In this document: positions 3,346 through 61,234 of the stretch, in pieces
Numbering within the stretch: position 1 is the first letter of the stretch
Layout of the letters: the number at the start of each line of letters is the position of its first letter
Assembly (NCBI RefSeq): GCF_000722635.1
Contig: NZ_JOKH01000001.1
Coordinates: 1,277,110 to 1,341,109 of the forward strand
Source: Endozoicomonas numazuensis
GTDB taxonomy: Bacteria; Pseudomonadota; Gammaproteobacteria; Pseudomonadales; Endozoicomonadaceae
Reading direction: 5' to 3'
DNA length: 64,000 nucleotides
Program-made: the position numbers and the translations under genes
The notes under the pieces: generated by a model
Databases searched by the model: none
Told to the model about the DNA's origin: nothing
The model's input: only the letters and a program-made list of their open reading frames with translations

Positions 3346-3522
3346 ATAAGAGCCTGACCGATCAATCAACTCAGCCCGGCTCCTGGTAGATTTACCATGA
3401 AAACGTCCCGAGGGGTAATTCCATGGTAAGACCTTGGTTTTCTGAAAGAGTTCAGCCCTTAAAAAGTCTGACTCGTTCTATTGAATATCATATTCGACCA
3501 CTATTCCCAGTCAGGCTCCTGG
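3346..3522. repeat. Family 1 palindromic repeat, degenerate copy
   Basis: This copy has diverged from the 168-bp elements at 8436 and 33489. The left end (GAGCCTGACCGA, then CAGCCCGGC) and the right end (CTGACTCGTTCTATTGAAT, then CTATTCCCAGTCAGGCTCCT) align clearly with them. The middle is replaced by unrelated sequence holding its own small palindrome (TTACCATG/CATGGTAA). The outermost right repeat overlaps the last codons of msbA (Pro-Gly-Ala-stop). Confidence 0.7.
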
Positions 3523-6313: not shown

Positions 6314-6370
6314 GAGCCTGGCTGGAATAAACGATCGGCAAAGAACTCAGAAAGTGCGTCCGCAGCTGTT

Positions 6371-6454
6371 AGAGCGTTCAAGACTGCTAGAGCGTTCACG
6401 ACTGTTTCGATCAATTCGATTAAATAGATCAACTATTTCACACGAATTGATCGA
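6371..6454. repeat. Tandem 18-bp repeat plus hairpin with the Family 1 loop, upstream of typA
   Basis: AGAGCGTTCAAGACTGCT (6371-6388) is followed directly by AGAGCGTTCACGACTGTT (6389-6406). A hairpin follows: TCGATCAATTCG (6407-6418) pairs perfectly with CGAATTGATCGA (6443-6454). The loop TTAAATAGATCAACTATT differs at one base from the loop of the 168-bp Family 1 elements, although the arms are different sequences. It occupies the 241-bp gap between the kinase gene and typA, 101 bp before the typA start, so it may be in the typA leader. Confidence 0.7.
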
Positions 6455-6554
6455 GACTGTTCAGAACGTTCATGGTTGCCACTCGTTCGACTGAGTTTTT
6501 ATCTCGACCCCGGTTTTCCAGACAGCCTCTACAAGATTTCAAGAGAGAAAGATA

Positions 6555-8369: not shown

Positions 8370-8435
8370 TTGATTGGCTGTTCTAACCGGGAGTCAGGCT
8401 CCCGGTTAGAAGTCTTAGCCAATTGCCCAAGGTTT

Positions 8436-8603
8436 CTAGGAGGCTGACCGAGAATAGACAGCCCGGCCTAAAATCCAGAAAGAACGGCCATCTTTTCCAC
8501 TGAATTTGCTTAAATAGGTCAACTATTCGCACAAATTCAGTGAAAAAGCTGACTCGTTCTACTGAATTTTATGCTCGGACGCTATTCTCGGTCAGCCTCC
8601 TAG
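8436..8603. repeat. Family 1 palindromic element, full 168-bp copy A
   Basis: The 22-bp terminal inverted repeats are perfect: 8436-8457 begins CTAGGAGGCTGACCGAGAAT and 8582-8603 is its reverse complement. Inside, CACTGAATTTG (8498-8508) pairs with CAAATTCAGTG (8532-8542) around TTAAATAGGTCAACTATT, which itself contains AATAG/CTATT. There is no reading frame. It lies between the convergent typA and CAP-protein genes. The last bases of the right repeat supply the TAG stop of the CAP gene. It is nearly identical to the copy at 33489. Confidence 0.9.
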
Positions 8604-10237
8604 AATCTCGGCGAAGCAAAAACCTGAGTCCAATAAATCTCGTATTGACTAAAGGCTTTCTCTACGAAGCTGGCTCCCATCTCGGTGACATGGGGGTTCA
8701 TGATGTTTTTGCAGTGTCCCGGACTGCTCATCCAGCCTTTGAGAACTTCGTCCACCGTGGAGTAGCCGGCGGCAACGTTTTCACCATAGCTCTTCCAGAT
8801 GTAACCCTGTGCCTCAATTCGTTCATCAGGTTGGCTATTATCTGAACCTTTGTGATCCATGAAATCTTTGTTTGCCATATCTAAAGAATGTCTTTTAGCC
8901 GCTGCCTCCAGAGAATGATTCCACTTTAGCGCTACTACTGCTGGCATAGGAGTACTGCCACAAGTTTGTGGTCTGGAACGAATAGCATTGACCGCTGTTA
9001 GCATCGCATGGGCAAATCCTTGGGTAGGCTGCGTCTTAGGTCCGAGAGACTTAACGTAGTTATCTGCTTTGGAATAGATGTATTTCCAGGCTACATGGCC
9101 TTTCTGCGGCAAGGTATCTATATAGCTGGCCAATTCGGGGGGGATATCTCCAGCCTTTCCTTCACCCATACCGCCCAGTCGGGCTATCAAGGGCATTCGG
9201 GGTACAATGACTCCATTCCAGAAACTTTGTAAATAACCTTTAACGGTTTCCCATTTCTGATAGGTAGCAGCGGCTGTAACACCGATAGCACCCAGTTTGG
9301 CTACAATTTTTGCACAGTTTTTGCAGAAACGAGCGGTGTCGCCCTCGTGGTATTTCCTGGCTGCCTCTTCTCTACGCTTTTCTTCTTCTTGTTGCAGCTT
9401 GGCTTTCGCTGTGGTCTCTTCACGTTTTTTCCTATCTCTCCTCAGTTGGGTGAGGGACTCATTGTCGTTGCTGGCTCCGAATCGAAGCGCTGAGAAAAAG
9501 TAAGAAGGTATATCACCACTGCTGGCAGCAAAAATATCAAGCACCCTGACGGGGCTGTTTACTATGGAATTCAGCAAGCTTTTAACAGACACTTCTTCTG
9601 GAGCCTGTCGAGGTTGAAAATCGAAGATAATGGGTTGTACATGACCGGGAGTATCTCCCTCCCCAGGTGTTAAAAGGAGGCTGATATCTGCTGTGAGTAG
9701 GGCGCTGAAGAGTGTTTCTGGTTCTTCAGCCAGAGAAATAATGTTCTCTTCAACTTCATAGCTGCCGCCTTCAAACCCTGTGAAGGTCTGAGTGGCTATC
9801 CGTCCATCAGGTAATAACGTTACTGTCAGGATTTTTTTCTTTAGAAGAATGGCCAGCTGAATGTTCAGGTTGTTGATAGGCACACCCAGAGAAGGGCCAA
9901 CAGTATGACTTTCCATATAGATATGCAAAGCAGCTGGATTGATCTGGTCATTATCGTAATATTCGAGGTGCTGTCTGACCTGGCGATAGATTTCTATGAG
10001 TTCCTTGTCACTGAGCACTTTCATGATGGATCGGGCCCAGCAACTGCCCTGGTCAGCGCTTTTTGTGCAGCTTTCAGGCGTTTTATAACTATGACTTGAG
10101 AGATACTCATTCAGCTCATCAGGATGAGTCATTGGGAAGACATCTACTGTAGCAGCATGAGATAAGCCTGTTGCAATAGACAGGGTCAAAGCACTTATCA
10201 ATAAATAAATGGTTCTGTGAATAAATGGATGGTTCAT
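8600..10237 (-). CDS. Secreted CAP/SCP (PR-1-like) domain protein with a long N-terminal region
   Basis: The 545-residue protein starts with a signal peptide (IYLLISALTLSIATGLSHAA). Residues 30 to about 260 match no family I know. A charged coiled-coil stretch follows around 270-305 (TTAKAKLQQEEEKRREEAAR), then a short Cys motif (FCKNCAKI) and a spacer. The C-terminal ~135 residues are a bacterial CAP domain: HSLDMANKDFMDHKG, SYGENVAAGYSTVDEVLKGW, SSPGHCKNIMNPHVTEMG and the closing WTQVF, which keep the His/Glu/His cavity residues. CAP proteins are secreted and in various systems bind sterols, lipids or host targets; the role here is unknown. The TAG stop comes from the adjacent palindromic element. 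Confidence 0.88.
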   Translation of the reverse strand: MNHPFIHRTIYLLISALTLSIATGLSHAATVDVFPMTHPDELNEYLSSHSYKTPESCTKSADQGSCWARSIMKVLSDKELIEIYRQVRQHLEYYDNDQINPAALHIYMESHTVGPSLGVPINNLNIQLAILLKKKILTVTLLPDGRIATQTFTGFEGGSYEVEENIISLAEEPETLFSALLTADISLLLTPGEGDTPGHVQPIIFDFQPRQAPEEVSVKSLLNSIVNSPVRVLDIFAASSGDIPSYFFSALRFGASNDNESLTQLRRDRKKREETTAKAKLQQEEEKRREEAARKYHEGDTARFCKNCAKIVAKLGAIGVTAAATYQKWETVKGYLQSFWNGVIVPRMPLIARLGGMGEGKAGDIPPELASYIDTLPQKGHVAWKYIYSKADNYVKSLGPKTQPTQGFAHAMLTAVNAIRSRPQTCGSTPMPAVVALKWNHSLEAAAKRHSLDMANKDFMDHKGSDNSQPDERIEAQGYIWKSYGENVAAGYSTVDEVLKGWMSSPGHCKNIMNPHVTEMGASFVEKAFSQYEIYWTQVFASPRF

Positions 10238-19412: not shown

Positions 19413-19580
19413 CCAGGAGCCTGTCGGACTTAAGCTTTCGAGCATGAAATTCAGTAGAGCGAGTCAGCTTTTTCGTTGGATTTGTGCGAATAGTTGACCT
19501 ATTTAAGCAAATTCAACGGAAAAGATGGCCGCTCTTTCTGGATTTCAGGCCGGGCTGTCTATTCTCGGTCAGCCTCCTAG
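19413..19580. repeat. Family 1 palindromic element, chimeric copy C (inverted)
   Basis: The length is 168 bp, in the opposite orientation to copy A. The end at 19559-19580 is the standard terminal repeat (CTATTCTCGGTCAGCCTCCT...). The other end is the variant CCAGGAGCCTGTCGGACTTA that also bounds the elements at 43868 and 61179. The central hairpin arms are CGTTGAATTTG / CAAATCCAACG (on the copy A strand) around the same TTAAATAGGTCAACTATT loop, so the arms have changed in step with each other. Confidence 0.88.
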
Positions 19581-31180: not shown

Positions 31181-31568
31181 GGAGCGGGCCGCGGCCTGAA
31201 ATCAAGAGGGTAAATGACAATTTTATCATGAAAATACGGCTTTACTCGCAACTCAAGAGAAACGAAGTCCAAGCATGTATGATCAATTAGATAGAAGCCG
31301 GGCAGTCTATTCTCTGTCAGGCTCCTAGCCGCCTTAGAGAAAATATCGTTGTATCCGTGAGCCTTTAGTGTGAATGATCAGGCTGGACGACATTTCCAGG
31401 ACAAAGCTGGCTTAATCGGAGGATTCTAGCTTGAATATAGGCGGTGGCGCAAAGAAGAAAGTGTTTATCTTGCAAGATAGAGTAGAACGAACGTGAGGCT
31501 TTGAGTCTTCTGGCCATTTAGACAACTAGCCAGAGAAGCGGTATTGCCCCTCTGGATGTCCAAATATT
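31181..31568. other. 388-bp intergenic region with a Family 1 end fragment
   Basis: At 31297-31328 a fragment (GCCGGGCAGTCTATTCTCTG, then TCAGGCTCCTAG) matches the end of the 168-bp palindromic element in inverted orientation; the rest of the element is gone. No gene is visible. The plsB promoter should lie at the left side. Confidence 0.6.
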
Positions 31569-33488: not shown

Positions 33489-33656
33489 CTAGGAGGCTGA
33501 CCGAGAATAGACAGCCCGGCCTAAAATCCAGAAAGAACGGCCATCTTTTCCACTGAATTTGCTTAAATAGGTCAACTATTCGCACAAATTCAGTGAAAAA
33601 GCTGACTCGTTCTACTGAATTTTACGCTCGGACGCTATTCTCGGTCAGCCTCCTAG
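33489..33656. repeat. Family 1 palindromic element, full 168-bp copy B
   Basis: Base for base almost identical to copy A (8436-8603) and in the same orientation, with perfect 22-bp terminal repeats and the same central hairpin. The main visible change is TTTACGCTCGG for TTTATGCTCGG near the right end. Together with the Family 2 element at 33250 it fills the 634-bp gap upstream of dapE. Confidence 0.92.
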
Positions 33657-43867: not shown

Positions 43868-43981
43868 CCAGGAGGCTGTCGGACTTAAGGCTGATTCGGG
43901 CTGAAATCCAGAGCTGTTTAAGGCTGAAGCCTAACGCTACTGAATGTCATGCTCGAAAGCTTACGTCCAAAAGGTTCCTGG
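43868..43981. repeat. Family 1 variant, 114-bp shortened copy
   Basis: It starts CCAGGAGGCTGTCGGACTTA and ends with a decayed complement (GAAAGCTTACGTCC...TTCCTGG), the same variant ends as copy C at 19413. TGAAATCCAGA and CTACTGAATGTCATGCTCGA match internal parts of the 168-bp element, but the central TTAAATAGGTCAAC hairpin is missing. The 96-codon frame across it (43846-44136) is probably not a gene. Confidence 0.7.
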
Positions 43982-44394
43982 TCTGGCAGGCTTCTGGAGT
44001 GCCGCAGGCAAAGAAAGAACATTCCTTTCGCTCATGGCTGCCTATTGAAGATGCCTTACGGATTTTAAAAGAATGTGAACAGGCTATCGTTCTGGTGAAC
44101 TTAATGCTTAAGTCCTATTCTCGATCAGATTCGTGAGTCCGGCATTCGTTCATGGCTAATCGACTGAGGATAACAATGATAGGCTGGATTGACTATGTGT
44201 GCAGGGGAAAAAGGCACTGAAAGTGCCCATAATTGAGCAATAAAATGGTGCGTGTGCACTTTAGTGGTGAGATTTGGCTGTTTTTGATGATTTAAATGCC
44301 AAAGTAGACACTTCTCATTTTGTACTAAAAGTATTAAGTTAGCGATCCGCGACTCTATCAGCTACTGGCTGGCAATCCCCTCTCAGGATCCAAG
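43982..44394. other. 413-bp region without a clear gene
   Basis: It follows the shortened repeat. A small hairpin GGCACT-GAA-AGTGCC at 44213-44227 has an A-run before it, so it would terminate minus-strand transcripts. No gene is recognised. The promoter of the acyltransferase gene at 44395 is expected at the right end. Confidence 0.4.
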
Positions 44395-53040: not shown

Positions 53041-54760
53041 GGGTGTCTTAAAAGCCAAAATTCAAACCCAGTGAGGCGCTTTGCTCGGTGTAGAATGACA
53101 CTTCATTGGGACTCTTTCCCAGCTGTCCATTTTTTCTATAAATGGGTGACACTTCTCAAACAACGCCCAGAGAAGCCAGTTGTACCATAAAATAGCGTAA
53201 ATATTGGCCTTTACAGCCCTACTCAGGTTGTAAGCCAGCAAGTGCAAACCAAATTCCAGTTTAACCTTTTCCAGCCCCTTGCGACGGAAGCGGTTTAATC
53301 CCTGTACATCCCGTAAATAGGCAAACACAGGTTCAACCATCGCCTTCCTTTTGCTGAAAGACTTTTTGGCTTTCGGATGCTGCATAACCTGCCTCAGTGC
53401 ATCTTTAGCATCATCCATTGCATAGCGCTTTATGCGCCGCCCCTTCTTATTGCTCGTGCATTTATCTTTGAGAAGGCAGCCTTCGCAAGGCCCATTGCCA
53501 TATATCTTCTGCTCCTTTGTGCGAGCGCTCCCTTTTATCTTACCAATGGGAGTCAACTCTTTTCCTGCAGGGCAACGATAAACGTCATTGGTTTCATCGT
53601 AATAAAAATGTCCCTTCTGGAACTTTTTGGATTCTTTGGGTTTGCCTGGTTCTTTACCCTCAGGGCATAGCAGGCTGATATCGTGCTCCAGACTGGTTGC
53701 AATGACTTCATCATTAAAATAACCAGCATCCAATAGCATTTCATCGACTGGTTTACCCGTGATCTGCATTGACTGATCAAGCATTGGATTTACGACAGTA
53801 GTTTCATTGGTAGGGTCTACAGCCTGAGCCAGTACCACCCGCTTGTTATTAGCTAATACGGATGGCTTGTAACTCGTTGTGTACCCTCGCCCCCGTTTCA
53901 TCTTTTGGACAACAGCTTCAGGCTCTGTAGGGCTTACGACAGCACTTTCTGACTTACCGTTCTTCTTTCGCTTCGCGTTGCGTTCAACGACTGCTTCGAG
54001 AGCACTGCTGGCCATCTCCAGATTCTTTTGGCTTTCAGGGCAATCTGGATGGTTGTCAGCTTGCGTTTGTGCTGCTTCATGCACCTGTTGCGCAGCTTCC
54101 TGCTTCATCAGGTTGTAATTTGAGCAAGCGGCTTCTATAACGGTCCCATCACCAGCCAGACAACTTCCATCGGAGTCTGTTTTTTTGAGAACGGCTCGTG
54201 TCAGGCTTTCAAAGAAAGCACCGGTCATGGACTCGCTGTGCATATTGATGAAGCGACCAATAATGGCATGGTCTGGAAAAATCCCTCCGGTAACCCACAT
54301 ACAGCCAAGATCGACACGGGCTAATCGTTCCAGAGTTCTCAACGAGGTAATGCCTTGCATAATGCCATAGAGAATCAAACCCATCATATTACGGGGTGAA
54401 TAAGGAGGACGTCCTTCTAATGCATACCTTTGCTCAAAATCAGACCAGTCCTGTTCATCAAGAAGGGATGCAACGGTAAAAGGTGTTTTTTGACCGGTTA
54501 GTTCAAGGTGCTCTTTCAGGTTAGTGTTGCCAAGAGTGATTGCGTTGGGGTCAGGAGCAACAAAACGTCGTTTGCCTGTTTTGTTGGCTGATCTTTTGGA
54601 TTCATCCTGTTTTTTGTGATCAGAACTACTGGCTGTACCTGAAAAAATATCGAGCTGTGGAGCAGTATTAATTTTTATTTGAGTTCTTGTCGTCATGCTG
54701 AAGCCGGTAAAGCTACTTGAATATACAGATTACCGGCTTGTAGTAGGTTTTGCGACACCC
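53041..54760 (-). mobile_element. IS1182-family insertion sequence
   Basis: The ends GGGTGTCTTAAAAGCC (53041) and, inverted, GGGTGTCGCAAAACC (from 54760) are short imperfect terminal inverted repeats. TCGATAG is present on both sides (53033-53039 and 54761-54767), a 7-bp target duplication (8 bp if the ambiguous A/G is counted). The element lies in the loop of the IS605-type right-end hairpin, and joining the flanks restores that hairpin. It contains one full transposase gene. Confidence 0.85.
53062..54696 (-). CDS. IS1182-family (IS5-like DDE) transposase
   Basis: The 544-residue protein is an intact DDE transposase with the IS1182 layout. The N-terminal DNA-binding/DUF772-type region has SPRNMMGLILYGIMQGITSL and HAIIGRFINMHS. 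The first Asp lies in LAGDGTVIEAACSNY, the second in DEMLLDAGYFNDEV, and the Cys-rich segment is CEGCLLKDKCTSNKKGRRI. The Glu region is KRKAMVEPVFAYLRDVQGLN (YREK-like), followed by HLLAYNLSRAVK. It seems complete, so it may be functional and more recent than its host element. Confidence 0.93.
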   Translation of the reverse strand: MTTRTQIKINTAPQLDIFSGTASSSDHKKQDESKRSANKTGKRRFVAPDPNAITLGNTNLKEHLELTGQKTPFTVASLLDEQDWSDFEQRYALEGRPPYSPRNMMGLILYGIMQGITSLRTLERLARVDLGCMWVTGGIFPDHAIIGRFINMHSESMTGAFFESLTRAVLKKTDSDGSCLAGDGTVIEAACSNYNLMKQEAAQQVHEAAQTQADNHPDCPESQKNLEMASSALEAVVERNAKRKKNGKSESAVVSPTEPEAVVQKMKRGRGYTTSYKPSVLANNKRVVLAQAVDPTNETTVVNPMLDQSMQITGKPVDEMLLDAGYFNDEVIATSLEHDISLLCPEGKEPGKPKESKKFQKGHFYYDETNDVYRCPAGKELTPIGKIKGSARTKEQKIYGNGPCEGCLLKDKCTSNKKGRRIKRYAMDDAKDALRQVMQHPKAKKSFSKRKAMVEPVFAYLRDVQGLNRFRRKGLEKVKLEFGLHLLAYNLSRAVKANIYAILWYNWLLWALFEKCHPFIEKMDSWERVPMKCHSTPSKAPHWV

Positions 54761-57320: not shown

Positions 57321-58588
57321 TGGCTCGATGGTCAAAAGATAAGCTCGTAAACCTGACGACAAAAATAGGTAGCGGTGCAACACCTAAGGGAGGCAAAGCT
57401 GCTTATAAGGTTGAAGGAATATCATTAATTCGCAGCATGAATGTTCATGATAACTATTTTAAGCCAAAGGATCTTGCATTCATTGACGAGCAACAAGCAG
57501 ATAAGCTTTCAAACGTTGTAGTTGAAAAGCTGGATGTTCTTCTAAATATTACTGGCGCATCTGTTGCTCGATGCTCAGTGGTAAACGAATCTTATTTGCC
57601 TGCAAGAGTTAACCAGCACGTTGCGATTCTACGACCAAAGAGTGAGGTAATCGATAGCCACTTTTTGTCTTATTTACTGGTTTCACACGAATACAAGAAA
57701 AAATTACTTCATTCTGGGAATAAAGCAGGGTCTACACGGGAAGCTTTAACTAAAAGCCAACTGCAAAATTTTGAAATTGAGTTTCCTGAACTCCCAGAAC
57801 AAAAACGCATCGTCGCCATTCTGGATCAAGCCTTTGCCGAGATTGAGCAAGCCCGCGCCCTTGCCGAGAAGAACCTCAACAACGCCCGTGAACTGTTTGA
57901 AAGCTACCTGCAGCAGGTGTTTAGCCAGCGTGGTGAGGGGTGGGTTGAGGCGGATATTGAGAGCCTTGTTAGTAATGGGATTTTAGATAAGCCACTTGAT
58001 GGTAATCATGGTGACATACACCCCAAAAAAGCTGACTTTGTGGAGAAAGGTGTGCCTTTCATTATGGCATCTGATCTTGTAGATGGGACAGTTGACACTG
58101 GTGGTTGTAATTTCATCACCCGACAGCAAGCAGATACTTTAAGAAAAGGGTTCGCAAAGGATGGTGATGTTTTAATTTCTCATAAAGCTACAATCGGTCG
58201 TACAGCAATATTAAAGACTGATTTGGATTACGTAATGCTGACTCCACAAGTAACCTATTATCGGATTCTTGATGGAAGCTCGCTTGCAGCTGAATATTTA
58301 TATTGGTATTTCAATTCACCTGTTTTTTTGAAAGAAATGAGGATCGTCGCAGGTGTTGGTTCCACTAGATCATATATTGGAATAACCAAGCAGCGTCAGT
58401 TACAAATTTCATTTCCAGATATTGATATACAAAGGAAAATCAGCCAAAAATTATGCTCTCTGGACAAAGAAATAAAAAGAATAGTTCCAGTTTATGAACG
58501 GAAACTGGCAGCTCTCGACGAACTCAAAAAATCCATCCTACAACAAGCCTTCACCGGCCAGCTAACAACAAGTAAGGAAGTCGCCTGA
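57320..58588 (+). CDS. hsdS: Type I restriction-modification specificity subunit HsdS
   Basis: HsdS recognises a bipartite DNA target. The 422-residue protein has two target-recognition domains (~1-150 and ~215-375), each followed by a conserved helical spacer: ELPEQKRIVAILDQAFAEIE (with LAEKNLNNARELFESYLQQV) and DIQRKISQKLCSLDKEIKRI (with LAALDELKKSILQQAFTGQL). The start is ATG 57320; a GTG three bases earlier is in frame. The TRDs are visibly more AT-rich than the spacers and than hsdM/hsdR, as expected for exchangeable specificity domains. The stop overlaps the hsdR start (TGATG). Confidence 0.95.
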   Translation: MARWSKDKLVNLTTKIGSGATPKGGKAAYKVEGISLIRSMNVHDNYFKPKDLAFIDEQQADKLSNVVVEKLDVLLNITGASVARCSVVNESYLPARVNQHVAILRPKSEVIDSHFLSYLLVSHEYKKKLLHSGNKAGSTREALTKSQLQNFEIEFPELPEQKRIVAILDQAFAEIEQARALAEKNLNNARELFESYLQQVFSQRGEGWVEADIESLVSNGILDKPLDGNHGDIHPKKADFVEKGVPFIMASDLVDGTVDTGGCNFITRQQADTLRKGFAKDGDVLISHKATIGRTAILKTDLDYVMLTPQVTYYRILDGSSLAAEYLYWYFNSPVFLKEMRIVAGVGSTRSYIGITKQRQLQISFPDIDIQRKISQKLCSLDKEIKRIVPVYERKLAALDELKKSILQQAFTGQLTTSKEVA

Positions 58589-61179
58589 TGAATACTGCAG
58601 GGAAGCGTAACGAAGCCGATACCCGTGCCGAACTGATTGACCCAAAACTCAAAGCCGCTGGCTGGAGTGTGGTGGAGCAGAGTTACATTCGTCGTGAGGT
58701 TATCTGTCCCGGCATTATCTTAACCGGCGGCAAGCGTGGCCCTGCAGTCACCAGTGATTATGTATTGGTCTACCGTGGCCGTAAGCTGGCTGCGGTGGAG
58801 GCGAAGAAAGAAGGTTTAAGTTATACCGAAGGGGTTCGCCAAGCCAAGGACTATGCGACAAGGTTGCAGTGCCGTATCGCTTATGCCACCAATGGCCATG
58901 AGATTTACCAGATTGATAGGCAAACAGGAGAAGAGGCGCTGGTTGATGACTTCCTCTCACCTGAGGCGCTCTGGTTACTGACCTTTGCAGATCAAGATAA
59001 CGGCGCTCCCGATTATAAAGCCGTCTGGCGTAACCGTTTCAGTGCTATTCCCTTTGAAATCAAAGGCGACTGGCAACCCCGTTACTACCAGGAAAACGCC
59101 ATTAATAATGCGCTGGAGGCCATCGCCGAAGGCAAGCAACGCATACTGCTCACCCTGGCGACAGGCACGGGCAAAACCTGTATCGCCTTTCAGATTGCCT
59201 GGACGCTGTTTCAGGGGCGCTGGAGCCTGAGCACACAGAAAGCGCCGGATGCTTCTACTCGACGACCCCGTATTCTGTTTCTGGCAGACCGCAACGTACT
59301 GGCGAATCAGGCCTTTAATGATTTCTCCGCCTTTGGTGACGATGCGATTGTGCGTATTGCGCCAGACGCTATAAAGAAACATGGCAAGGTGCCCAAGAAT
59401 GCCAGCGTGTTCTTCACCATCTTCCAGACCTTTATGAGCGGTAAGGATGAAGACGGCAACGATGCCCCGTACTTTGGTGATTACCCAGCAGACTTCTTTG
59501 ATTTTATCGTGATTGATGAGTGTCACCGGGGCGGCGCGAACGATGAAAGCAGCTGGCGGGAGATTCTTAACTACTTCAGCCCTGCCGTTCAGCTGGGTTT
59601 AACAGCAACACCGAAACGCACCGAGAATGCCGACACCTATGGCTACTTCGGTGAGCCTGTGTACAGCTACACCCTCAAAGAGGGGATTAACGATGGTTTC
59701 TTAACGCCATTCAAAGTGTACCCCATTGTCGGCACCATGGATGAGTATATTTATACCCCCGGCGATGGCGTGCTGGTGCAGGGAAAACCAGAGCCCGGCA
59801 AACTCTACAAAGAGGGTGACTTTAACCGCACCATTATCATCCCTGCCCGTGAACAGCGGCGGGTGAAATACTGGATGGACAAGATTAACCCTCACCAAAA
59901 GACCATCGTCTTCTGTGCCACCCAATCCCACGCAGGCATGGTACGTGACTTCATCAATCAGTATGCCGTTAAGAAAGGCTGGACAACCAATACTAGCTAC
60001 TGTGTGCGTGTTACGGCCAACGATGGCACTGCCGGTGAGAATGACCTCAAGACATTCTCTGATAATGAGAAGACCATTCCGACCATTCTCACCACCTCGA
60101 AAAAGCTATCGACTGGCGTAGATGCCCGAAACGTACGAAATATTGTGTTGATGCGCCCCTGTAACAACATGATCGAGTTTAAGCAGATTATCGGACGCGG
60201 CACCCGGGTTTTTGAAGGCAAAGAGTTCTTCACTATTTACGATTTTGTGAAGGCTCACCATAACTTCTCTGACCCCGAGTGGGATGGCGAACCTATCGCA
60301 CCTGAACCCTGCAAGGTGTGTAGCGAAAGCCCTTGTATCTGCGTACCGGAACCCTGTGGCGAATGTGGTTTTCACCCTTGCGCCTGCCCCGAGCCGAATT
60401 GCCCGGAATGTGGTCAGCAACCTTGCGCTTGCCCCGAGCCGAATTGCCCAGAATGTGGTCAGCAGCCTTGTGCCTGCCCCAGGCCGAATTGCCCGGAGTG
60501 CGGCCAGCGACCTTGCGTGTGTGGCCCCAAAGTCTGTGAAGTGTGTGGCGATTCTCCGTGTTCCTGTGAAACCCCTCCGCCGCCAGAGAAGATCATCATC
60601 AAGCTCCACGATGGCAAGGCCCGGCAGATTAAGCATATCTCTTCCGTGATGTACTGGGGGCCGGATGGGAAGCCCATCACCGCGAAAGAGTTTGTTGAGC
60701 GCATGTTTGAAGACCTGCCTCGCTTCTTCACCAATGAAGATCAGCTGCGTGAGATATGGGGCGACCCAGATACCCGCGAGAAGCTGCGTCAGGACCTCAC
60801 AGAAGCAGGCTATGACGATGAAAAGCTCGACAGCATGAAAGAGCTGATAGATGCCCGGGACAGTGATGTGTATGACGTTCTGGCTTATGTCGCTTATGCC
60901 GCTGAGGTACATACCCGGAAAGAGCGAGCAGAGAAGGCCAAACCACTGATCTACAGCGCATTCACTGATGAAAAGCAGCAAGAATTTATCAACTTTGTTT
61001 TGGATAAGTACGTTCAGGATGATGTCGATGAACTGTCCAAGAGTAAAATGCGCAGCATGGTCGAGCTGAAGTACAACACGATCAGTGATGCGGCTGAGGT
61101 GCTGGGTTCCCCAGCCGTGATTGGTAAAACCTTTATGGGCTTTCAGAAGTATCTGTATCAGACGGATACACTGAGCTAA
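58588..61179 (+). CDS. hsdR: Type I restriction endonuclease HsdR (EcoEI-like) with a Cys-rich repeat insert
   Basis: HsdR is the ATP-dependent DNA translocase and nuclease. The 863-residue protein has a PD-(D/E)xK nuclease (Asp57 in VTSDYVLVY; AVEAKKE with Glu71 and Lys73), Walker A TGTGKT (192-197), DECH (310-313), TATPKR (339-344) and the second RecA domain with QIIGRGTRVFEGKEF. The C-terminal EcoEI-type domain starts near residue 668. Between them (572-666) is a Pro/Cys insert with six C-x2-C-x4-C-x-C modules (24 Cys), three of them encoded by a 45-bp tandem repeat. The start overlaps the hsdS stop. Confidence 0.95.
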   Translation: MNTAGKRNEADTRAELIDPKLKAAGWSVVEQSYIRREVICPGIILTGGKRGPAVTSDYVLVYRGRKLAAVEAKKEGLSYTEGVRQAKDYATRLQCRIAYATNGHEIYQIDRQTGEEALVDDFLSPEALWLLTFADQDNGAPDYKAVWRNRFSAIPFEIKGDWQPRYYQENAINNALEAIAEGKQRILLTLATGTGKTCIAFQIAWTLFQGRWSLSTQKAPDASTRRPRILFLADRNVLANQAFNDFSAFGDDAIVRIAPDAIKKHGKVPKNASVFFTIFQTFMSGKDEDGNDAPYFGDYPADFFDFIVIDECHRGGANDESSWREILNYFSPAVQLGLTATPKRTENADTYGYFGEPVYSYTLKEGINDGFLTPFKVYPIVGTMDEYIYTPGDGVLVQGKPEPGKLYKEGDFNRTIIIPAREQRRVKYWMDKINPHQKTIVFCATQSHAGMVRDFINQYAVKKGWTTNTSYCVRVTANDGTAGENDLKTFSDNEKTIPTILTTSKKLSTGVDARNVRNIVLMRPCNNMIEFKQIIGRGTRVFEGKEFFTIYDFVKAHHNFSDPEWDGEPIAPEPCKVCSESPCICVPEPCGECGFHPCACPEPNCPECGQQPCACPEPNCPECGQQPCACPRPNCPECGQRPCVCGPKVCEVCGDSPCSCETPPPPEKIIIKLHDGKARQIKHISSVMYWGPDGKPITAKEFVERMFEDLPRFFTNEDQLREIWGDPDTREKLRQDLTEAGYDDEKLDSMKELIDARDSDVYDVLAYVAYAAEVHTRKERAEKAKPLIYSAFTDEKQQEFINFVLDKYVQDDVDELSKSKMRSMVELKYNTISDAAEVLGSPAVIGKTFMGFQKYLYQTDTLS
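60382..60516 (+). repeat. Three tandem 45-bp repeats inside hsdR
   Basis: The units at 60382-60426, 60427-60471 and 60472-60516 each start GCYTGCCCC and encode ACPEPNCPECGQQPC (third unit: Arg for Glu, Arg for Gln). They differ at a few bases each. The unit length is a multiple of three, so copy number can change without shifting frame. Confidence 0.92.
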
Positions 61180-61234
61180 CCCAGGAGTCTGTCGGACTTA
61201 TACTCGAAAGTATAAGTCCGACAGACTCCTGGGT
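61179..61234. terminator. Perfect 26-bp hairpin between hsdR and tag (Family 1 variant ends)
   Basis: The arms 61179-61204 and 61209-61234 are exact complements around CGAA. They contain CCAGGAGTCTGTCGGACTTA, the variant end of the Family 1 elements at 19413 and 43868, joined head to head with no interior. The arm starts in the hsdR stop codon. It separates convergent genes and may stop both transcripts, although there is no T-run. Confidence 0.8.

Follow-up and report, generated by a model that had tools for sequence, protein, structure and literature searches.

Within the window, a 64-kb stretch of Endozoicomonas numazuensis DNA, positions 8436–8603 (plus strand) hold a MITE copy (copy 1) consisting of a 160-bp element (8440–8599) with a CTAG on each side, at 8436–8439 and 8600–8603. 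These tetramers are read as target duplicates on the basis of the 4-bp duplication shown on copies of an insertion sequence (IS) described below. The perfect 22-bp terminal inverted repeats occupy 8436–8457 (plus strand) and 8582–8603 (minus strand), and the left one is identical to the repeat of that IS. The complement of the right CTAG provides the TAG stop of the minus-strand gene 8600–10237. Additionally, an inverted repeat (TTCTAACCGGGAGTCAGGCTCCCGGTTAGAA) at 8381–8411, after typA, has a similar counterpart in the related genome G001 and is a probable terminator.

The sequence 8436–8603 is a near-complete palindrome that folds as one hairpin, with a DNA fold of −51.9 kcal/mol. Shuffled versions of copy 1 averaged −16.0 kcal/mol (s.d. 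3.1), and none of 200 folded as low. Six open reading frames of at least 20 amino acids overlap the sequence, one of them being the neighboring gene 8600–10237. Only a single 28-aa frame, taken as chance, lies wholly inside, in agreement with the original prediction of no ORF; the element is short and without a transposase gene, as a MITE should be. An RNA element of a known family was rejected, as the whole window contained no Rfam match at gathering cut-offs; six weak sub-threshold matches of microRNA type around copy 1 were attributed to chance similarity with a long hairpin.

Further copies in the window

Two additional full-length copies are present in the window. Copy 2 (33489–33656, plus strand) is identical to copy 1 at 167 of 168 bases and has perfect 22-bp ends, and copy 3 (19413–19580, minus strand; 89% identity) has one standard and one variant end. 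Both had been described in similar terms in the original prediction. For degenerate copies, we used a profile made from the 168-bp copies of the examined stretch of contig C1, with a limit of E 1. It matched an enlarged, degenerate copy at 6314–6529 (plus strand, E 2e-11), which was absent from the earlier list. A degenerate item had been placed at 3346, and the right half of an element was indeed matched at 3459–3522 (plus strand, E 2e-10). Similarly, the fragment proposed at 31297 corresponds to a decayed copy at 31192–31328 (minus strand) that is clear only at its end, 31295–31328 (E 1e-5), the extension to 31192 being weak (E 0.013).

The remaining items fared less well. At 43868, where a shortened variant had been proposed, pieces of the family are present, but as scattered remnants and not as an intact shortened element: a decayed fragment at 44075–44132 (plus strand, E 4e-4) and weak profile pieces nearby at 43929–43962 (E 0.06) and 43869–43912 (E 0.2). 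The profile search at E ≤ 1 gave no match to the items at 61179 and 46008. The latter matches over only 12 bases, indistinguishable from chance at that length, and we do not retain it as a fragment. The former does hold two variant ends, as claimed, at 61180–61233, without being a family member by profile. Directly after the stop of gene 58588–61179, these 54 bp form a perfect hairpin from an end sequence (CCAGGAGTCTGTCGGACTTA) that is related to, yet distinct from, that of the MITE. The variant end of copy 3 is a close form of this hairpin end. Within 1.6 Mb there are 11 occurrences of a 12-mer of the hairpin, CTGTCGGACTTA, some of them outside full ends.

Genomic copies, partner insertion sequence and target site

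A search of the 6.34-Mb genome with the 20-bp end at ≤1 mismatch found 291 ends (141 + 150), and the reversed control found none (0 + 0). Estimated from these ends rather than counted directly, the number of genome-wide copies would be about 145, which suggests well over a hundred. Of 244 candidates, 40 were scored by BLAST, and 21 of those 40 were identical to copy 1 over all 168 bp. Thus, the family extends well outside the window, with the many dispersed and partly identical copies expected of a MITE. Pairing over the initial 1.6 Mb of contig C1 gave 48 candidates, of which 45 were ≤200 bp long. All stretches examined gave 80 distinct insertion sites; 70 of the elements measure 168 bp, and a further 5 have a 106-bp form that is a deletion of the longer one. 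The MITE had no match in a plasmid collection.

Across the family, 23 of 38 genomes have the end, representing four of eight genera, with controls at 0. The MITE query matched 10 of 11 genomes of the genus (its own included), mostly over the end region only, and a full-length relative of the MITE (82%) is found in G035, from genus g8. Four genomes (G005, G008, G009 and G010) hold 31–83 ends each, and the transposase of the partner IS had no match in them at E ≤ 1e-100. The MITEs may have outlived the transposase there, or another enzyme may serve them.

The autonomous partner predicted to lie elsewhere was located at 349706–351416 of contig C1 (genome G000). This IS is 1,711 bp long and has perfect 22-bp ends identical to those of the MITE (22/22 at both ends), so that the MITE repeats match an autonomous element in their own genome. 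Its intact gene encodes 504 aa and matches the IS1182 equivalog NF033551 (NCBIfam) with 379.8 bits (cut-off 270; E 2e-113), and the protein carries the Pfam domains DDE_Tnp_1_6, DUF772 and DDE_Tnp_1. Members of the IS1182 family have one ORF, a length of 1.3–1.95 kb and terminal repeats, a format that the partner fits with its single ORF and 22-bp repeats. The ends in common and the uninterrupted transposase gene are direct observations, and from these sequence features the MITE is very probably moved in trans by the IS enzyme. In the resulting scheme, the IS1182-family transposase would mobilize the MITE, which would insert into CTAG and duplicate it.

Intact genes for this transposase number three in the genome itself (plus fragments), two in G002 and 17, at 86% identity, in G003. 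Only one of the three resident copies retains both of its own ends in perfect form. The copy at C1:880149 has the last 12 bp of one end missing or changed, and the copy on contig C9 (L070, 1,826 bp) is a chimera of IS bases 1–1682 and 150 bp of MITE that supply the right end. Thus, the IS and the MITE recombine. G021, a genome from another genus, has numerous copies of transposase relatives at ~71% identity. A contig scan, from which the genome itself and near genomes may be left out, found two further relatives on MAG contigs (61–62% identity), both of which keep the end (1–2 mismatches in 18) and CTAG. Beyond the 22-bp ends, the MITE and the IS had no significant sequence in common, and a simple deletion derivative of the IS was therefore rejected as the origin of the MITE. 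A second, distant transposase of the IS1182 family is encoded in the window at 53062–54696 (minus strand, 544 aa; 290 bits, cut-off 270). It is ~27% identical to the partner enzyme and is one of ten such copies in the genome; the ends of its element look different by eye (GAGGGTGTC).

To define the target, we compared the 4-mers flanking IS insertions. Among distinct full-length insertions, 24 of 25 had equal flanking 4-mers and one was unequal. Our table of 22 distinct sites, from which four copies were dropped (L211 and L214 because their ends had diverged too far, L080 and L200 because they share the left flanks of L072 and L199), has equal 4-mers at 22 of 22: CTAG at 20 and the non-palindromic CTCG and GTAG at one each. 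The three further distinct sites are L200 and L211 (both CTAG/CTAG) and the unequal L214 (GTAG/CTAG), an IS copy of G021 with a 71% transposase. Apart from that unequal site, these are the 4-bp target repeats expected of IS1182. At 65 distinct sites of young MITEs, the flanks read CTAG/CTAG at 49, CCAG/CCAG at one and unequal 4-mers at 15, including TTAG/CTAG three times; we put the unequal pairs down to mutation or to recombination between copies. Thus, the target duplication is 4 bp with CTAG preferred, and of the predicted target, TA or CTAG, the CTAG holds and TA alone does not. Mutated duplicates nearly always change CTAG to CCAG on the plus strand of the contig (15, with CTAG to CTGG once) and at either element end, although the contig strand should be arbitrary (C1:1–1,600,000 and ten stretches of C2, C3 and C5).

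By a flank-pattern test, 16 of the 80 sites abut another element or end, and the clear cases share one CTAG; the edge of an element is therefore itself a target. Targeting of a CTAG at the edge of an existing element would give tandem copies with one common CTAG.

Empty sites and gene ends

Comparison of orthologous sites showed copies 1 and 3 to be missing in relatives. Copy 1 is absent in G001, G008, G009 and G010, the four of ten other genomes with both flanks alignable, and G001 reads CTTAG at the site. For copy 3, no MITE was seen by eye between the aligned flanks in the same four genomes. Copy 2 lies within a 1.5-kb stretch without a match in the four relatives compared, save short repeats in G008, and therefore has no clean empty site. 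Target duplication and empty orthologous sites, both typical of a MITE, are thus present, with unequal 4-mers at the 15 of 65 young sites. Two observations bear out the predicted repeated and recent mobility: identical copies coexist with older subfamilies, and relatives have orthologous sites that lack the element. Of the two outcomes named beforehand as refuting recent mobility, confinement to the window and constant presence at orthologous sites, neither was seen. In addition, G001 has a MITE in the same intergene as the element at C1:521396, and G008 has one near C1:529970.

The elements had also been described as dispersed at gene ends. Control CTAGs were taken from the 1.6 Mb that also supplied the elements; 476 of 789 such controls lie within a called gene, compared with none of 45 elements. 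Of the elements, 9 of 45 sit precisely at a TAG stop, and the figure for non-genic control CTAGs is 22 of 307 (Fisher p = 0.009, uncorrected). By a second criterion on the larger set, the counts were 12 of 80 versus 18 of 296 non-coding CTAGs (p = 0.017, uncorrected). Convergent intergenes hold 13 of 45 elements versus 47 of 313 intergenic control CTAGs (p = 0.03, uncorrected), and only two of the 22 IS sites involve a stop codon. All of these statistics rest on a simple hexamer gene caller, which would call a gene split by an element as two pieces; flanks were therefore inspected, and none of the 45 elements had same-strand called genes touching both its sides. The stop-codon enrichment is real but modest, roughly 3-fold over non-coding CTAG, so that the siting at gene ends stands in this limited form.

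The proposed explanation lies in the target: CTAG reads identically on both strands and includes TAG. Insertion on a C-TAG stop would regenerate the stop, and two convergent genes could keep one stop each. Because the stop would be regenerated, stop-codon sites would be tolerated and elements would appear at gene ends; the remaining insertions would be intergenic because selection loses genic ones. This accounts for the siting in sequence terms: the palindromic target carries a stop on both strands, and its duplication restores the target.

Comparison with relatives points to native stops in 3 of 3 cases. The gene 8600–10237, ending on the right CTAG of copy 1, has TAA at the same place in G001 (by eye), and its stop is thus native. 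At C1:525340, the stop of the neighboring gene is native as well (by eye; TAA in G010). At C1:519757–519924 (L034:4758–4925), the CTAG stops of two convergent genes, of the PBP1A family and malic-enzyme-like (the latter below the family cut-off), lie at the two edges of the element. Here all six relatives with both flanks aligned have 91–148 bp of other sequence containing what is by eye a hairpin terminator, with the alignment stopping short of the edges in G006 and G007. It is possible that the MITE replaced a terminator via recombination between two insertions.

Covariation and maintenance of the palindrome

MITEs of other genomes of the genus and of genus g5 have about the same length and the same ends but a different interior that still pairs, and the hairpin covaries strongly between MITE lineages. 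A pair of ends was found in 38 of 40 stretches. After copy 1 and three further G000 copies were added, 32 elements were 163–170 bp long, and 30 were aligned, L229 (sequence equal to L228) and L233 (interior replaced) being left out. Changes on both sides occurred in 16 of 64 pairs in A1 (19 rows of the other type; 98.4% of cells paired), in 14 of 64 pairs in A2 (11 rows of the query type; 96.4%) and in 27 of 59 pairs in A3 (20 of the rows, both types; 97.1%). When partners were slid by 1–3 columns, ≤48.4% paired. In none of 500 shuffles for each alignment did as many pairs or cells change on both sides; related rows inflate this test, and the hairpin structures came from the alignments themselves. 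The measure of further pair types was weaker, being matched by 28, 9 and 3 of 500 shuffles for A1, A2 and A3.

The 70 own-genome 168-bp copies were then split by age. At paired positions, the 61 young copies (≥95% identical to copy 1) have changed on one side 53 times and on both sides twice. In contrast, the 9 older copies have 51 two-sided paired cells, 1 two-sided unpaired cell and 37 one-sided cells, and as they represent few lineages, these counts are not independent. Thus, pairing is kept between lineages and not in place on the timescale of the last burst. Distinct G-T versus A-C changes numbered 3 versus 8 in A1 and 5 versus 12 in A2, and the young own-genome copies had 14 versus 12 such cells. 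Because G-T is not clearly favored over A-C, there is no sign of selection on the RNA of one strand.

We hold with high confidence that the element is a 160-bp non-autonomous MITE plus a 4-bp duplicate, mobilized in trans by the resident IS1182-family IS at CTAG targets, with its symmetry most likely kept at transposition. Selection at that step fits best: the palindrome spans the whole element and its sequence underwent compensatory changes between lineages, and as copies in place decay uncompensated, the most likely reason for the lasting symmetry is that symmetric copies are the best at transposing, for example through a cruciform bringing the two ends together. A genuine possibility, though not one we favor, is that arm-to-arm correction, by template switching between the arms during replication, keeps the palindrome instead of such selection. 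One-step conversion of this kind would give double Watson-Crick changes far in excess of intermediates, as is seen in the interior of A1 (66 double cells, 7 G-T, 13 A-C and 3 other). The predominance of one-sided changes in the 61 young copies (53 versus 2) means that correction is not fast in place; a slow rate is compatible.

That the hairpin acts as a host RNA, a transcription terminator or 3′-end stabilizer kept at gene ends for this reason, appears improbable. The elements on stops and the excess between convergent genes are in its favor, as is the element at C1:519757, which stands where all six aligned relatives have a hairpin terminator by eye. However, the gene-end enrichment is small, young copies lose pairing uncompensated, G-T is not clearly favored over A-C, and Rfam gave nothing in the window at gathering cut-offs, with sub-threshold matches of microRNA type only around copy 1. 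Least credible, and very improbable, is an IS630/mariner-like MITE with a TA duplication inside CTAG. A few unequal sites fit TA, namely TTAG/CTAG at 3 of 65 young MITE sites and GTAG/CTAG at the IS copy L214. A TA-only duplication was nevertheless rejected, since the GTAG/GTAG around a G003 IS copy needs a 4-bp duplication and is incompatible with TA; additionally, the partner transposase belongs to IS1182 and not to IS630.

Selection at transposition could be taken one step further, a step we offer as a tentative and rather doubtful proposal. The whole-length palindrome, beyond the terminal repeats, would be part of the preferred transposition substrate of this DDE-type (IS1182) transposon; jumping lineages would renew symmetry by paired changes as inserted copies decay one-sidedly, and palindromic MITEs would thus out-multiply their 1.7-kb parent. 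The genome has one parent copy with an intact gene and both ends perfect and its own, compared with well over a hundred MITEs. The covariation also bears, in a testable way, on the frequent hairpin form of bacterial MITEs, which may be favored in the process of transposition rather than for the sake of the host.

By sequence tests, the element is assigned as a MITE of an IS1182-family IS, a new member of a kind known from MITEPye1, and it represents a very abundant bacterial MITE linked to its probable transposase, with the target fixed as CTAG and a 4-bp duplication. A search of open-licence literature found no paper on the element, none with its end sequence and none combining Endozoicomonas, MITE and transposase, and the accessible portions of PMC8370563 and PMC6053426 contain nothing on an IS1182 MITE. 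MITEPye1 of Paracoccus yeei, as presented in the accessible part of its report, is IS1182-related, with terminal repeats like those of ISPye18 (PMC11578231). It shares with our element the lack of an ORF, IS1182-type ends, 4-bp direct repeats, an intergenic location and a long stem-loop. Unlike MITEPye1, with 18-bp repeats and 1–3 copies per chromosome in that account, the element described here has well over a hundred copies, a CTAG target and lineage covariation (PMC11578231). The IS1182 element ISPsy36 of Pseudomonas syringae pv. actinidiae (~1.66 kb) is similar in format to the partner IS and, in the consulted text, likewise has a palindromic 4-bp target repeat, GGCC rather than CTAG; the word MITE is absent from the main text of that paper (PMC8027508). 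MITEPsy1 of P. syringae pv. phaseolicola is described in the sections consulted as ~100 nt long, with a 4-nt duplication, a CTAG or YTAA target and transposition in vivo (PMC3189936). It shares CTAG and the 4-nt duplication with our element and differs in its ISPsy2-like ends ("IS5?"), its six copies and its other terminal repeats (PMC3189936).

BrickBuilt of Porphyromonas gingivalis is a MITE with an internal minisatellite and target duplications of varying length; its ends and host differ from ours, and the available part of its description does not mention a whole-length palindrome (PMC4596501). An internal tandem repeat is a feature in common, here in one relative, L232 (PMC4596501). In 8 of 38 elements extracted from related genomes, a module of ~46 bp (GGCAACTGCTCCTGCGTTGCTCTAGCTCCTGCATCCATGCAGTCGT or near it) was seen by eye in one MITE arm. 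The carriers are L231, L232, L233, L239, L245, L251, L255 and L260, with four tandem units in L232.
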